Source: Kyrpidia tusciae DSM 2912
GTDB taxonomy: Bacteria > Bacillota > Bacilli > Kyrpidiales > Kyrpidiaceae
DNA: 64,000 nt
Assembly (NCBI RefSeq): GCF_000092905.1
Contig: NC_014098.1
Coordinates: forward strand, 2,418,001-2,482,000
Direction: 5' to 3'
Position numbers and translations under genes: made by a program. Shown piece by piece: positions 6,943 to 11,973 of this stretch (position 1 is the stretch's first letter; each line of letters opens with the position of its first letter). The notes under the pieces are model-generated. The model worked only from the letters and a program-made list of their open reading frames with translations, had not been told where the DNA came from and did no database searches.

Positions 6943-7788
6943 CTACCCCCGGGCCCCCATCCCCAGAGACCGCCGCCACGCCACCCGCCGGCCGGATACC
7001 AGAGACACCAGACCGTAGATGAGAGCCGCCGCCAGGACGATGGACGCCCCCGAGGCGACATTCAGATAGTAGGACGTGTAGAGCCCGACCAAGGCGCTGA
7101 CCAACGCCACCCCCACGGCAATGGCGGTCATCTGCGCCATACTGCGGGCCACCTGCCAGGCCGTGGCCGCCGGGATGACGAGAAGGGCCGTGACCAGGAT
7201 CACCCCCACCGTCTGCATGGCGGCCACCACCCCAATGCCGATCAGAGCTAAGAATGCGTTGTTCAGCCAGGTGGTCGGCAGTCCTGCCGCCCGGGCCCCC
7301 TCGGGGTCAAAGGATAAAAACACCATTCGCCGGTAAAACAGCAACATGAACCCCGCCACCAAAAACAAAACCGCCACGACGGCCACTAAATCCTGAGCAC
7401 GCAGGGCGAGGACATCGCCGAACAGATAAGCGGAAAGATCTGTCGTGTACCATTTGATCGTGCTGATCAACAACACCCCGAAGGCGAGAGACCCGGAAAA
7501 GACGATGCCTACCGCCGTGTCCATCCGCGTGCGCCGACGCCGGCCGATCCAAGCGATCAACAAAGCCAATCCGACGGTGTACACACTGCCAAACGCATAG
7601 AGATTCCACCCCAAGGCGTAGGCCAGGGCGAGGCCGCCCAGGGATCCATGAGCAAGACCTTCCCCGATAAAGGACATGCCCCGGAGCACCACAAAGACCC
7701 CGAGCAAGGCTGCCAACACGCCCACGGCCACAGACCCGACCAAGGCCCGCCACATAAAATCAAACTGAAAGGGCGCCAGAAGGAACAT
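6943..7788 (-). CDS. znuB: Metal ABC transporter permease (ZnuB type)
   Basis: A 281-residue inner-membrane permease of the ABC-3 family (zinc/manganese importers) with about eight hydrophobic segments. Typical motifs include LRGMSFIGEGLAHGSLGG and VGVILVTALLVIPAATA. The ATG at 7788 is preceded by AAGGGGGCGG and overlaps the end of znuC by 29 bp; the longer upstream frame is the shadow of znuC. It works with ZnuC (ATPase) and ZnuA (binding lipoprotein), and zinc is the likely substrate from the adjacent Zur-like regulator and boxes. Confidence 0.9.
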   Translation of the reverse strand: MFLLAPFQFDFMWRALVGSVAVGVLAALLGVFVVLRGMSFIGEGLAHGSLGGLALAYALGWNLYAFGSVYTVGLALLIAWIGRRRRTRMDTAVGIVFSGSLAFGVLLISTIKWYTTDLSAYLFGDVLALRAQDLVAVVAVLFLVAGFMLLFYRRMVFLSFDPEGARAAGLPTTWLNNAFLALIGIGVVAAMQTVGVILVTALLVIPAATAWQVARSMAQMTAIAVGVALVSALVGLYTSYYLNVASGASIVLAAALIYGLVSLVSGRRVAWRRSLGMGARG

Positions 7789-8545
7789 CGGCACCGCCCC
7801 CTTCCCTGCCCTCGGGCCGTTTCCCAACGGGAACACCGAAAGTCTCCGCCAAGATCCCTCGCTTTTGCACCTCATCAAAACTGCCCCGCCCGACCAGCCG
7901 CCGGTTGATGCACCACACCTGGTCAAACTGCCTGAGTCGGGCGGGTTCCAGATCATGAGTCACTTGAATGACGGCGGCCCCGCCCTTGCGAAGGCCATCC
8001 AGCAACTGTTCGATGACCTCCTGGGTCGGGGCGTCCAGACCAGTCACTGGCTCGTCCAGAAGCCACACCGGCGCATTCCGGATGAGGGCCCGGGCGATGA
8101 GCACCCTCTGGCGTTGCCCCCCGGACAGATTCCCGAACAACTCCTCTCGCCATTCCAGCATGTCTACAGCCTCAAGGGCCCGTTCCACCGCCGCCCGCTC
8201 TTTCGGACCCGGCTTTTTCAGCCAAAATCCCCGGCGCAGGAACCCCATCGCCGCCACGTCCCAGACGGTGACGGGCATGTCCAACCCCATGACCTGGGAC
8301 TGCGGGACATAGGCGGCACCGCTGGGTGGATGCCCGGGTGTCACCGACTGGCCGGCGACTTCCACATGGCCGATCACATGAGGAACCAAGCCCAACAGAA
8401 CTTTCAACAGCGTACTTTTCCCCGCGCCATTCGGCCCCACTACAGCAATGCGTTCCCCAGCCGCCGCCTCCGCCGCAACGTCCGTCAAGATGGGTTCCTG
8501 GCCGTACGCGGCATGTACATTTTCCAGCCGGACGATGGCACTCAT
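7760..8545 (-). CDS. znuC: Metal ABC transporter ATP-binding protein (ZnuC type)
   Basis: A 261-residue ABC ATPase. The Walker A GPNGAGKST, the signature LSGGQRQR and Walker B VWLLDEP are all present, followed by a switch His (QVTHDL). The ATG at 8545 has AAAGGGGGCG upstream. It lies between znuA and znuB in one minus-strand operon, energising uptake of zinc or manganese. Confidence 0.92.
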   Translation of the reverse strand: MSAIVRLENVHAAYGQEPILTDVAAEAAAGERIAVVGPNGAGKSTLLKVLLGLVPHVIGHVEVAGQSVTPGHPPSGAAYVPQSQVMGLDMPVTVWDVAAMGFLRRGFWLKKPGPKERAAVERALEAVDMLEWREELFGNLSGGQRQRVLIARALIRNAPVWLLDEPVTGLDAPTQEVIEQLLDGLRKGGAAVIQVTHDLEPARLRQFDQVWCINRRLVGRGSFDEVQKRGILAETFGVPVGKRPEGREGGGADVPSGALSV

Positions 8546-8559
8546 CGCGCCGCCCCCTT

Positions 8560-9501
8560 TCACGACGAAGACCCTTTCAAAGCGCTGACGATCGTCTGGA
8601 CATCAAATTTCATCATATCGATATACGTGGCCGTTCCCGGGCCGCCCACCGTATCATCCAACAAATTATCCACAAACCGTACCCCCGTATCCTCCGCAAG
8701 CCGGGAGATCAGCTTGGGATTAAAGCCAGCTTCCCCGAACACCGCCGGCACGTGGCGGTCCCGGACCGCCTGAACCACCTTCGCATAATCCTGGGGAGAA
8801 GGTTCCGCCCCGGACGAACCGGCGAGATACACCTGTTCCAATCCGTATTCTTTACAGAAATACGGCCACGCATCGTGGAACACGACCATCGTTCGCCGGT
8901 CCGCCGGGATCTGGGCGATCTCGGAGCGGATCCACTTATCGAGATCCTGAAGTTGACCGATGTAAGTTTGGGCCCGGTTCCGGTATTCTGCGGCCCCAGC
9001 CGGATCTACCTCGATCAGCGCGTCCCGGATCCTCTCCGTATACTTGACGGCGTAGTTCGGATCGAGCCACATGTGCGGATTCCCGGTCCCCCCTTCTCCC
9101 TGACCCAAAACCGGCAATCCGTCGGACAAGGTGACGATTTTCAGATCCGATCGCCCGCTGCTTTGAATCAGCTTCTGAATGTAAGTCTCCTCTCCGAGAC
9201 CGTTTGCCACAAACAACTTCGCCTGGGATATCGTCCGCACGTCAGCAGGGGTCGGGGAGTAATCGTGGGGATCGGCCCCCGGCGGCACCAATGCCGTCAC
9301 TTGGACCCGGTCGCCGCCCACCTGCCGAATCATGTCCGCGATGGGCGTAATGCTCGTGACCACCCCCAACGCCCCGGACGAAGCAGGCTTGCCCGCATCC
9401 CCGGTCTGTCCGGATGAGGATGGCCCCTGTCCGCATGCTGCGAGGAAAAGAGACAAAAGAACGATAGCGAAAACCGAAAATCGACGAATGCGTCCGCCCA
9501 T
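8560..9501 (-). CDS. znuA: Zinc/manganese-binding lipoprotein (ZnuA type)
   Basis: A 313-residue periplasmic-type solute-binding lipoprotein (cluster A-I family). The signal ends in the lipobox LAAC. Metal-ligand segments are PPGADPHDYSP (His), NPHMWLDP (His), VVFHDAWPYF (His) and VFGEAGFNP (Glu/Asp region). There is no long His-rich loop, so zinc versus manganese cannot be decided from this protein alone. The ATG at 9501 has GGAGGG upstream. It is the promoter-proximal gene of znuACB, under a promoter at 9549-9578 with Zur-like boxes on both sides. Confidence 0.9.
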   Translation of the reverse strand: MGGRIRRFSVFAIVLLSLFLAACGQGPSSSGQTGDAGKPASSGALGVVTSITPIADMIRQVGGDRVQVTALVPPGADPHDYSPTPADVRTISQAKLFVANGLGEETYIQKLIQSSGRSDLKIVTLSDGLPVLGQGEGGTGNPHMWLDPNYAVKYTERIRDALIEVDPAGAAEYRNRAQTYIGQLQDLDKWIRSEIAQIPADRRTMVVFHDAWPYFCKEYGLEQVYLAGSSGAEPSPQDYAKVVQAVRDRHVPAVFGEAGFNPKLISRLAEDTGVRFVDNLLDDTVGGPGTATYIDMMKFDVQTIVSALKGSSS

Positions 9502-9517
9502 AGCGCGCCCTCCTATT

Positions 9518-9532
9518 CCGTAATCGTTTCGA
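9518..9532. promoter_or_regulatory. Zur-like box in the znuA leader
   Basis: CCGTAATCGTTTCGA differs from the Bacillus Zur consensus TCGTAATnATTACGA at three positions and overlaps a palindrome with arms TAATCG/CGATTA. It lies just downstream of the znuA -10, where a bound repressor would block transcription. Confidence 0.5.
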
Positions 9533-9548
9533 TTATCGCCGTACACCG

Positions 9549-9578
9549 AGTATAATATGGGTGGGGAAAGACGGTCAA
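9549..9578 (-). promoter_or_regulatory. Promoter of znuACB
   Basis: On the minus strand TTGACC (9573-9578), an 18-bp spacer and TATACT (9549-9554). It lies about 48 bp upstream of the znuA ATG. Confidence 0.6.
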
Positions 9579-9597
9579 AAGCCCGGAGAGTCGTTTT

Positions 9598-9612
9598 TCG
9601 TAATCATTCCGA
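9598..9612. promoter_or_regulatory. Zur box between znuA and zur
   Basis: TCGTAATCATTCCGA matches the Bacillus Zur consensus TCGTAATnATTACGA at all but one position. It sits upstream of the znuA -35 and over the probable promoter region of the divergent regulator gene, so it may serve autoregulation. Confidence 0.6.
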
Positions 9613-9711
9613 TCTTGAACCTGTATAGAATCATTTTTTGACCGCATACGGCATCGGACGCCTCTCATCGGCCGGCAGAGTGGACAAAAGAGGGAAAGGA
9701 CGGGATCGGCC

Positions 9712-10134
9712 GTGCAAAGCCAAAGTTATTTGGACAAACTGCGAAAACAGGGATTGAAGTTGACCGGTCAACGCAAGATGATCCTGCAGATCCTTTTGAC
9801 CGAAAACCGGTACATGTCGGCGAAAGAACTGATCGATCAAGTGCAGGAACAGTATCCCCATATCAGCTACGACACCATTTATCGCAACCTGAGAATGCTC
9901 CGGGACGAGCACATGATTGAAGAATCGATGTTTGAAGACGGAAGTGCCAGGTTTCGAATCCGGTGCGCCGATCCCCATCATCACCATTTCATCTGCACCC
10001 GATGCGGAGCCACGATTCCCATCGAAGCCTGTCCGATGGAGTTGACGGTGCCCGCTCCCGAAGGCTTTCTCGTCCAAAGTCACCGCTTCGAAGTTTTTGG
10101 TGTATGTGGCCAGTGCCGAAGTGTAACGAAATAA
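9712..10134 (+). CDS. zur: Fur-family metalloregulator, probably Zur
   Basis: A 140-residue Fur-superfamily repressor. It has an N-terminal winged helix (recognition segment around SYDTIYRNLRML), a His cluster PHHHHF and two CxxC pairs (ICTRCG and GVCGQC) that hold the structural zinc. It begins with GTG at 9712, preceded by AAAGGA. Its placement divergent from znuACB, with a near-perfect Zur box between, argues for Zur; Fur and PerR share the fold and cannot be strictly excluded from sequence alone. Confidence 0.85.
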   Translation: MQSQSYLDKLRKQGLKLTGQRKMILQILLTENRYMSAKELIDQVQEQYPHISYDTIYRNLRMLRDEHMIEESMFEDGSARFRIRCADPHHHHFICTRCGATIPIEACPMELTVPAPEGFLVQSHRFEVFGVCGQCRSVTK

Positions 10135-10189: not shown

Positions 10190-11002
10190 ATGCGGCTATG
10201 GTGGCGCAGCGAGCGGCAGCGAGGCATGGCGATGGCCGTCGTTTTAATGGCAAGCCTAACGGGATGTGGCCCAACGTCGTCGGCGGTCGATCCCCCTGGA
10301 CCGGCCGCCGATGCCCTTCAGGCGGAAAACGCCCGCCTTAAACAGCAAGTGGCCGAACTGCAAAAGAGGCTTTCGGTCCTTGAACCCGATTCGCCCGTTA
10401 CAAGGCCTCTTTCAGAGATCGATCGTGAAGTTGAGATTTTCACCGCCACCCACCCCACCGCACCCGTCGATCAAGTCCTGCGCCGAGGAGCACAGTTGCC
10501 CTTTGAAGCGGTGGTGACAAACACTCAGTGGCGGCGCCCGGGGTATTCCGGAGTTTGGCACAGCACTTATTTCGGTGGAAAATACAGCGGCGTGGAGGAG
10601 CTGGTGGAACTGGCGGCCCACCGCGCTTTTGTGTACGCCGGTGGGTTGGCGGCCTCCCAACAGCTGCTCTACGGGCTGGGCATCGTCACGACTCCCGAGA
10701 GCGATGCAACCCGGGGGAAAAACCTTCCCCTTCAAGATACCCGGGGAGACCACATCAGCCTTCTGATTCTCTACGGACAGGTTCAAAGCGTGACGCGGTT
10801 GGACAAGCAGGTGGTGGTCAAGGTAAAACCCACCGAGGCGGGCTTTCAGGAAGTGCGGCTGAATACCGTGGACGTCCTGGGCAAGACGGGAACTTCAGGG
10901 GGGGACTCGGGAACATCGACCCTGTTGTTCGAGTTCGTGACGCCGGAAGGCGATCCTTTGGATGCCTGTACGGCGGACTTGACGGAGTCAAAGCAAGGGT
11001 GA
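10190..11002 (+). CDS. Predicted lipoprotein with short coiled coil, unknown function
   Basis: A 270-residue protein that I do not recognise. The N-terminus carries Arg residues, a hydrophobic stretch AVVLMASL and a lipobox LTGC, then a short coiled coil (ALQAENARLKQQVAELQKRL). The remaining 200 residues are mixed alpha/beta without a motif known to me; they contain many aromatic Trp/Tyr residues. The ATG at 10190 follows GAGGCGGGAAG. It is co-directional with zur, 55 bp downstream, and may be co-transcribed. Confidence 0.6.
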   Translation: MRLWWRSERQRGMAMAVVLMASLTGCGPTSSAVDPPGPAADALQAENARLKQQVAELQKRLSVLEPDSPVTRPLSEIDREVEIFTATHPTAPVDQVLRRGAQLPFEAVVTNTQWRRPGYSGVWHSTYFGGKYSGVEELVELAAHRAFVYAGGLAASQQLLYGLGIVTTPESDATRGKNLPLQDTRGDHISLLILYGQVQSVTRLDKQVVVKVKPTEAGFQEVRLNTVDVLGKTGTSGGDSGTSTLLFEFVTPEGDPLDACTADLTESKQG

Positions 11003-11035: not shown

Positions 11036-11070
11036 CAAAAAACCTCCCCGCCCGGCCAGGCGAGGAGGTT
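11036..11070 (-). terminator. Intrinsic terminator of the zinc-ribbon gene
   Basis: On the minus strand AACCTCC...GGAGGTT forms a GC-rich hairpin (11041-11070), followed by a run of T residues (11036-11042 as A on the plus strand). The stem starts at the stop codon of the 42-residue gene. It may also stop plus-strand readthrough from the convergent lipoprotein gene. Confidence 0.7.
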
Positions 11071-11197
11071 AACTTCGATCCTGACTGCGCCCCTCATTGT
11101 CATCCAATCGGCGATGACAGTCGGGGCAGATATTGAACTCCCTTTCTACTTCATCTCCTTCATAAAATTCACCGCATTCCAAGCAAATGTACTGCAC
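11069..11197 (-). CDS. Small zinc-ribbon protein (42 aa)
   Basis: A 42-residue protein with two CxxC knuckles, CLECG and CPDCH, a rubredoxin-like or zinc-ribbon pattern binding one metal. It ends in a charged Asp/Glu/Arg tail. The GTG start at 11197 has an excellent ribosome binding site (AGGAGGTGATCCC). A promoter (11267-11295), a leader hairpin and a terminator frame it as a self-contained transcription unit. Candidate roles are a transcription or translation accessory zinc ribbon; nothing in the sequence fixes which. Confidence 0.75.
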   Translation of the reverse strand: MQYICLECGEFYEGDEVEREFNICPDCHRRLDDNEGRSQDRS

Positions 11198-11218
11198 GGG
11201 ATCACCTCCTGCTCTGTG

Positions 11219-11244
11219 CGTTCGTGTGGCCCACGAAACGAACG
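11219..11244 (-). promoter_or_regulatory. Hairpin in the leader of the zinc-ribbon gene
   Basis: CGTTCGT (11219-11225) and ACGAACG (11238-11244) are perfect inverted arms. They lie between promoter and ribosome binding site and are not followed by a T-run. This could stabilise the mRNA 5' end or bind a regulator. Confidence 0.45.
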
Positions 11245-11266
11245 AGCTTGAATTATTGTTATGCGT

Positions 11267-11295
11267 ATTATACCGCGGTTGTGCTCGACTGGCAA
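11267..11295 (-). promoter_or_regulatory. Promoter of the zinc-ribbon gene
   Basis: On the minus strand TTGCCA (11290-11295), a 17-bp spacer and a perfect TATAAT (11267-11272). This is among the best sigma-A-type matches in the window. Confidence 0.7.
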
Positions 11296-11315
11296 GAAAA
11301 AGGCCGGGCTCGGCC
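11296..11315 (-). terminator. Terminator of sodA
   Basis: GGCCG (11302-11306) and CGGCC (11311-11315) form a short GC stem with a tetraloop, followed on the minus strand by TTTTTC. It lies 43 bp after the sodA stop and directly upstream of the next gene's -35. Confidence 0.65.
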
Positions 11316-11358
11316 CCGTGCAGAACCGTTGCCCGGCAATAAGATTCGGTGATCGGGG

Positions 11359-11973
11359 TCAGGCTTTGGCCTCGGCGAACCGCTTTGCCACAGCGTCCCA
11401 ATTCACCACATTCCACCAAGCGGCGATGTATTCGGGCCGTTTGTTCTGATACTTGAGATAGTAGGCGTGCTCCCATACGTCCAGTCCCAGGATCGGATAA
11501 TCTCCGTCCATGTACGGGCTGTCCTGGTTCGGGGTGCTGGTGATCTCCAGCTTCCCGCCCGGTTTCATGACCAGCCAAGCCCAACCGCTGCCAAAACGGC
11601 CTGCCGCAGCTTTAGAAAACTGATCCTTGAAGGAATCGAAACTCCCAAAGGTGCTGTTGATCGCGTCCGCCAGGGCTCCGGTCGGCTGGCCGCCACCACC
11701 CGGTTTCATGATCTGCCAAAACATGCTATGATTCGCATGTCCGCCTCCGTTGTTCCGGACAGCGGTACGGATGTTTTCAGGAACACTGTTGATCCCGCGA
11801 AGCAGGTCCTCGATGCTCTTGGCTTCCAGGTCTGGGTGACCTTCCAGCGCTGCATTGAGGTTATTCACGTAGGTACCATGGTGGCGATCGTGGTGGATCT
11901 CCATGGTGAGGGCATCGATGTACGGCTCCAGGGCGTTGAAAGCATATGGCAGAGGCGGTAATTGATGTGCCAT
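11359..11973 (-). CDS. sodA: Superoxide dismutase (Mn/Fe)
   Basis: A 204-residue cytosolic Mn/Fe superoxide dismutase converting superoxide to peroxide and oxygen. The four metal ligands are visible: His27 in [11 protein letters not shown], His82 in [10 protein letters not shown], and Asp165 and His169 in DVWEHAYY. The GGHANHS context and the [11 protein letters not shown] segment favour the Mn type. GGAGGG precedes the ATG at 11973. A promoter lies at 12015-12044 and a terminator follows, so it is monocistronic. Confidence 0.96.

Follow-up and report, generated by a model that had tools for sequence, protein, structure and literature searches.

A conserved 42-codon gene with its own promoter and terminator signals in Kyrpidia tusciae represents an uncatalogued family of putative zinc-ribbon microproteins in Bacilli

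A 42-codon open reading frame (ORF), located with all its expression signals at positions 11036-11295 of the 64-kb window (the whole stretch of 64,000 nt analyzed here) on the minus strand of the 3,384,766-bp Kyrpidia tusciae chromosome, is almost certainly a genuine protein-coding gene. Its deduced product is a putative zinc ribbon with two CxxC pairs and, judged from its sequence relatives, represents an uncatalogued family within a known kind of protein, the single-domain zinc-ribbon microprotein. As the best explanation, held with about even confidence, the gene would encode such a microprotein working as a standalone adaptor or regulator.

Structure of the transcription unit

The following features, all on the minus strand, were identified at the locus:

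11359-11973, minus strand: Fe/Mn superoxide dismutase gene sodA, the upstream neighbour, in the same place in genomes G003 and G002
11300-11317, minus strand: terminator-like site 3' of sodA, its T-run abutting the -35 box
11290-11295, minus strand: -35 box TTGCCA, identical in G003 and TTGCTC in G002
11267-11272, minus strand: -10 box TATAAT, 17-nt spacer from the -35 box, invariant in all three Kyrpidia genomes
11219-11244, minus strand: leader inverted repeat with 7-bp arms (CGTTCGT at 11244-11238, ACGAACG at 11225-11219)
11198-11210, minus strand: ribosome binding site AGGAGGTGATCCC, directly 5' of GTG 11197
11069-11197, minus strand: 42-codon ORF with GTG start and TAA stop, putative two-CxxC zinc ribbon
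11041-11070, minus strand: intrinsic terminator, 13-bp stem and T-run, the stem starting inside the stop codon

The earlier note had described this locus as a self-contained transcription unit for a two-CxxC protein, with a near-consensus promoter, a strong ribosome site and a terminator beginning at the stop codon. Each of these elements was found, and the promoter and terminator signals, together with the kept reading frame, support such a unit. The codons occupy 11197-11072, followed by the stop at 11071-11069, and place the CxxC pairs at residues 5-8 and 24-27. The promoter agrees with the sigma-A consensus at 11 of 12 positions and is one of two sites with at least 11 matches on both strands of the window; TATAAT is followed by a leader of about 63 nt, and GGGAGGTG of the ribosome site is retained in G002. 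The terminator hairpin folds with a z-score of -5.1 (none of 200 shuffles as good) and is retained, by folding of G003 and G002, in all three Kyrpidia genomes; strict scans of G002 detected neither promoter nor terminator. At the sequence level the small gene carries sigma-A-type promoter signals and terminator signals of its own, which enclose about 220 nt. At 11295-11300 the T-run of the terminator-like hairpin of sodA passes directly into this promoter's -35 box, a tight junction between the two units. The earlier note also supposed that the gene may be highly expressed and that automated gene finding might miss it; the published K. tusciae annotation is stated to have been made with Prodigal and GenePRIMP.

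The leader hairpin was part of the same earlier description, and its perfect 7-bp arms, separated by 12 nt, are indeed present, with a fold better than all but one of 200 shuffles (z -2.7). Its role as a designed part of the unit found no such backing: 7-bp repeats are not rare, occurring in 31 of 1000 leader shuffles and 144 times in the window, in G003 the arms persist while the stability of the fold (z -0.46) does not exceed that of shuffled sequence, and in G002 the arms are missing. A conserved regulatory element was therefore rejected, and the hairpin is, by comparison of these leaders, apparently a feature of one lineage. The repeat pattern occurs a single time in the genome and hence marks no shared operator.

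Conservation within Kyrpidia

The ORF is retained in all three Kyrpidia genomes (G000, G003 and G002), and the proteins of the two other genomes share 95 and 76% identity with the window copy. Between the window and G003, dN is 0.02 and dS 0.20; between the window and the farther relative G002, 17.8 synonymous differences per 22.3 sites stand against 15.2 replacements per 103.7 sites (dN 0.16, dS saturated). The check that the earlier note had proposed, conservation of the frame in relatives, hence came out in favour of the gene: synonymous changes far exceed replacements, and the frame is under purifying selection. The start codons are GTG, GTG and, in G002, ATG. A longer version of the frame, starting at TTG 11584 and encoding 171 aa, was rejected because it would run through sodA, because GTG 11197 has a ribosome site and because G002 has ATG at that codon. 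The sole other genus of the family sampled, represented by a 79% complete genome (G001), yielded no member by profile search; its single weak match was a ribbon within a long frame, a sirtuin by eye.

The sodA gene lies upstream in all three Kyrpidia genomes and beside family members in none of the other long loci. On the other side, a 270-aa lipoprotein-like ORF (10190-11002, plus strand), convergent with the small gene, is kept in G003 and G002 and has no Pfam or NCBIfam match above cut-off. Farther along, within 6943-10134, a Fur-family regulator gene assigned by Pfam match (9712-10134, plus strand) is divergent from a minus-strand set of binding lipoprotein, ATPase and permease genes, by eye a zinc-type ABC uptake operon.

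A family of short standalone ribbons in Bacilli

A first profile, built from the three Kyrpidia proteins, picked up short ORFs in other Bacilli. Several weak matches of the class-wide search (A1) proved to be AccD or other ribbons, or unconvincing frames, and were dropped. The resulting alignment (A2) contains 22 rows, excluding locus L057, where the start could not be placed, and has seven invariant columns, C5, C8, G14, D15, N22, C24 and C27, three of which are not cysteines. The motif reads C-L-x-C-x5-G-D-x6-N-x-C-x2-C in the Kyrpidia ORF and C-[LI]-x-C-x(4,6)-G-D-x(5,7)-N-x-C-x2-C, within a short standalone ORF, for the family, a description that the window copy fits. All 32 places examined carry the family pattern, most of them having been found with profiles that include it. 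When the Kyrpidia profile was compared with the set from which the Kyrpidia proteins had been removed, the probability was 98.7% (E 2e-16).

Of the 398 Bacilli genomes (145 genera) searched with the A2 profile at E 0.001, 25 genomes from 10 genera have a member, a count that is not an independent sample, as the profile was built from members in the same genomes; in a phylum-wide draw of 299 genomes the profile recovered the window's own genome only. A member is carried by all seven genomes of bacterial family f36, and genome G037 holds five copies (L045, L046, L047 and two further places), two distant ones having equal scores. A match in Gynurincola (L010) spanned no more than 11 residues and was discarded as a chance similarity.

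No model in Pfam, NCBIfam or PHROG covers the ribbon family convincingly. In Pfam the window protein comes closest to DUF7564 (PF24445), with 21 bits where the cut-off is 32.2, and the scores for Zn_ribbon_8 (PF09723; 13.4 vs 34.4 bits), FmdB (TIGR02605; 11.1 vs 31.3 bits) and the AccD zinc ribbon (PF17848; 16.6 vs 24.5 bits) also fell below their cut-offs. PADLOC gave no match below E 0.047, and narrow literature searches (Kyrpidia tusciae with zinc ribbon; Kyrpidia spormannii) returned no description of the protein.

Promoters and neighbours of the chromosomal relatives

Many relatives in other Bacilli have TATAAT together with AAGGAGG-like sites upstream. Among the 16 chromosomal members with about 12 kb of sequence and no prophage-like surroundings, representing five families and leaving the window copy out, 14 have TATAAT within 120 nt upstream; the corresponding figures are 10 of 131 for the remaining long ORFs of these loci and 2.9% for random windows (Fisher p 1.5e-11, a value that overstates the case because the hexamer was chosen after viewing the upstream sequences and the loci are related). 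A strict hairpin-plus-T scan placed a terminator-like site 3' of 10 of the 32 members.

The neighbours of these genes vary by family. In f36, a convergent gene for a 139-aa CxxC protein adjoins the ribbon gene in all seven genomes, and the divergent gene is ComM/YifB-like by eye. A CDP-alcohol phosphatidyltransferase-type gene lies downstream in all four loci read in f12 (one tested by search). In f27 the upstream gene encodes a PH-domain-like protein (one tested by search), and two of the three loci have a gene for a DUF2621-like protein immediately downstream (one tested by search). Since the neighbours change from family to family while the short unit stays, the gene appears to be a free-standing unit rather than an operon partner.

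The 139-aa protein (CCG...CPTC; L038:5458-5877, L046:6230-6631 and G000:C1:1492370-1492777) has no Pfam match above cut-off. Its gene also adjoins one of the ribbon copies of G037 and is unlinked to the ribbon gene in Kyrpidia. It is present in 164 of the 398 Bacilli genomes, comprising 23 of the 25 with a ribbon gene and 141 of the 373 others. A functional partnership is a lead suggested by this distribution, and shared ancestry alone could explain the co-occurrence.

Prophage-like copies

Copies in prophage-like surroundings, which are devoid of a convincing promoter, were found in G037, G149, G094, G116 and G127, beside recU-type, methyltransferase or late-activator-type genes. In G037 one of the copies shares 4 nt with a recU-type resolvase gene and has a gene for a phage-type DNA methyltransferase as a neighbour. 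In all five prophage-like loci whose flank is long enough (L043, L047, L048, L056 and L057), a phrog_248/phrog_36-type activator is encoded downstream on the same strand, at distances from 69 nt to about 3.5 kb; L085 and L086, with too short a flank, were left out of this count. Small ORFs near the late activator are common in phages, and the proximity of ribbon and activator may be incidental.

These copies are what recommends the best placed of the alternatives, in which the chromosomal genes would descend from a phage ribbon targeting a host machine and would have been retained to control superinfection or for some host function. We consider this origin unlikely: the chromosomal copies have their own promoters, their position next to the gene for the 139-aa protein is constant in all seven f36 genomes, no member was found in phage records, and the pattern matched 22 stretches of viral contigs, none of which was confirmed. 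Plasmid records likewise contained no relatives of note.

Zinc-ribbon likeness

The two CxxC knuckles of the window protein are about 15 residues apart, as in zinc ribbons. An AlphaFold2 model (mean pLDDT 78, pTM 0.50) contains two short strands and two helices; no match stands out in Foldseek (best E 1.4) or VIA-align (best Z 3.2, rmsd 2.9, 39 aligned), the weak, non-significant structural matches being to XPA, YacG, ribosomal proteins, Fur and PerR. Sequence search of the PDB gave two matches, one of 10 residues at E 0.58 and one of 14 residues at E 0.93. The cysteine spacing, the model and the kind of weak structural matches agree with a zinc ribbon, and the protein probably binds zinc. The motif does not make this certain, since two-CxxC microproteins do not always do so: of 14 examined in Haloferax volcanii, 9 were zinc-binding (PMC6562870). 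The Haloferax one-domain C(P)XCG zinc-finger microproteins resemble the Kyrpidia protein in having fewer than 70 residues, two CxxC pairs, a single putative zinc domain and a standalone nature, and differ in being archaeal, in their C(P)xCG motif and in having mutants with growth, biofilm and swarming phenotypes (PMC6562870, PMC11241148).

Were zinc itself the business of the protein, it could serve as a zinc buffer or zinc-status protein holding or passing on the metal, a reading for which the nearby Fur-family gene (9712-10134) and the adjacent binding-lipoprotein/ATPase/permease set, zinc-uptake-like by eye, may be cited. However, one zinc per 42 residues makes poor storage, the neighbours read outside Kyrpidia are other genes, the invariance of G, D and N suggests that the protein has to do more than hold metal, and the promoter-proximal inverted repeat, occurring once in the genome, offers no shared operator; the odds therefore appear to be well against it, slightly more so than against a phage origin.

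Comparison with known small ribbons

Next after its own family, the Kyrpidia profile matched the AccD ribbon, a domain of the acetyl-CoA carboxylase beta subunit, with 97% hhalign probability (93% in a second comparison), and both share the CxxC-x15-CxxC spacing and an N-x-x-CPxC-like second knuckle. They differ in that the Kyrpidia ribbon is the whole protein and has the G-D motif. YacG, a gyrase inhibitor (PDB 4tma), is likewise a small protein, one that regulates by binding a machine; its structural likeness is weak (Z 2.5, rmsd 6.2, 41 aligned; Foldseek E 1.6), it was not among the PDB sequence matches, and nothing in these comparisons indicates kinship.

Gin/CsfB (PF10764) is an anti-sigma factor and, like the ribbon protein, a small protein of Bacilli whose two CxxC pairs are separated by about 15 residues. 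That the ribbon is an anti-sigma factor of this kind was considered in view of the similar spacing, of the 71% probability of the 22-row profile against Gin over 26 columns and of the absence of any Gin match from the three Kyrpidia genomes. Of all 41 genomes searched, 24 gave such a match, and according to its description K. tusciae forms spores. The Kyrpidia profile, however, reached 47% against Gin, over 12 columns that are out of register, compared with 97 and 93% for the AccD controls, G037 and G014 carry both families, and the E-G-I and F-I-C-x-x-C-E features and longer C-terminal half of Gin are absent from the ribbon family. Membership was rejected, PF10764 being absent from G000 at E 0.01 and from the matches of the protein up to E 1, and an anti-sigma function of the Gin kind is very improbable. 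Least probable of all, with a very small chance, is an incidental ORF in a unit that makes a small RNA, which the mere 220 nt enclosed by promoter and terminator might suggest and against which stand the codon-level purifying selection, the protein family across Bacilli and an Rfam search in which the unit gave nothing at E 1. A single sub-threshold Rfam match, to a microRNA, fell outside the unit and was discarded.

Discussion

The preferred reading remains that of a real gene for a single-domain zinc-ribbon microprotein with a standalone role. The four cysteines would bind a single Zn(II) within a ribbon some 30 residues long, behind which would come a polar, variable tail, and the protein would be made independently of its neighbours. 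The invariant G-D and N beyond the cysteines, the changing neighbours and the phage-like copies speak for a ribbon that attaches to another macromolecule as its partner, and it may well be, with roughly equal weight on either side, that it acts as adaptor or regulator by binding one such partner. A part of the transcription machinery would be the most plausible candidate, because the prophage-like copies sit in a gene cluster that runs up to a transcription activator of the late type; that the protein acts in transcription is nonetheless a guess from the phage context and rather unlikely to be right. More doubtful still is the specific proposal that the family binds RNA polymerase, a sigma factor or the late activator, as a single-zinc clamp of the phage early-late switch kept by hosts as a constitutive regulator.

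Single-domain zinc microproteins are little studied, as stated for archaea (PMC11241148). A tiny ORF noticed by eye has here become a testable protein family with a fixed motif to mutate, found in 10 of the 145 Bacilli genera sampled. Having no model in Pfam, NCBIfam or PHROGs, the family merits an annotation model even if it should prove a minor player, and its sharing between chromosomes and prophages is of a kind that often marks a protein touching a central machine.
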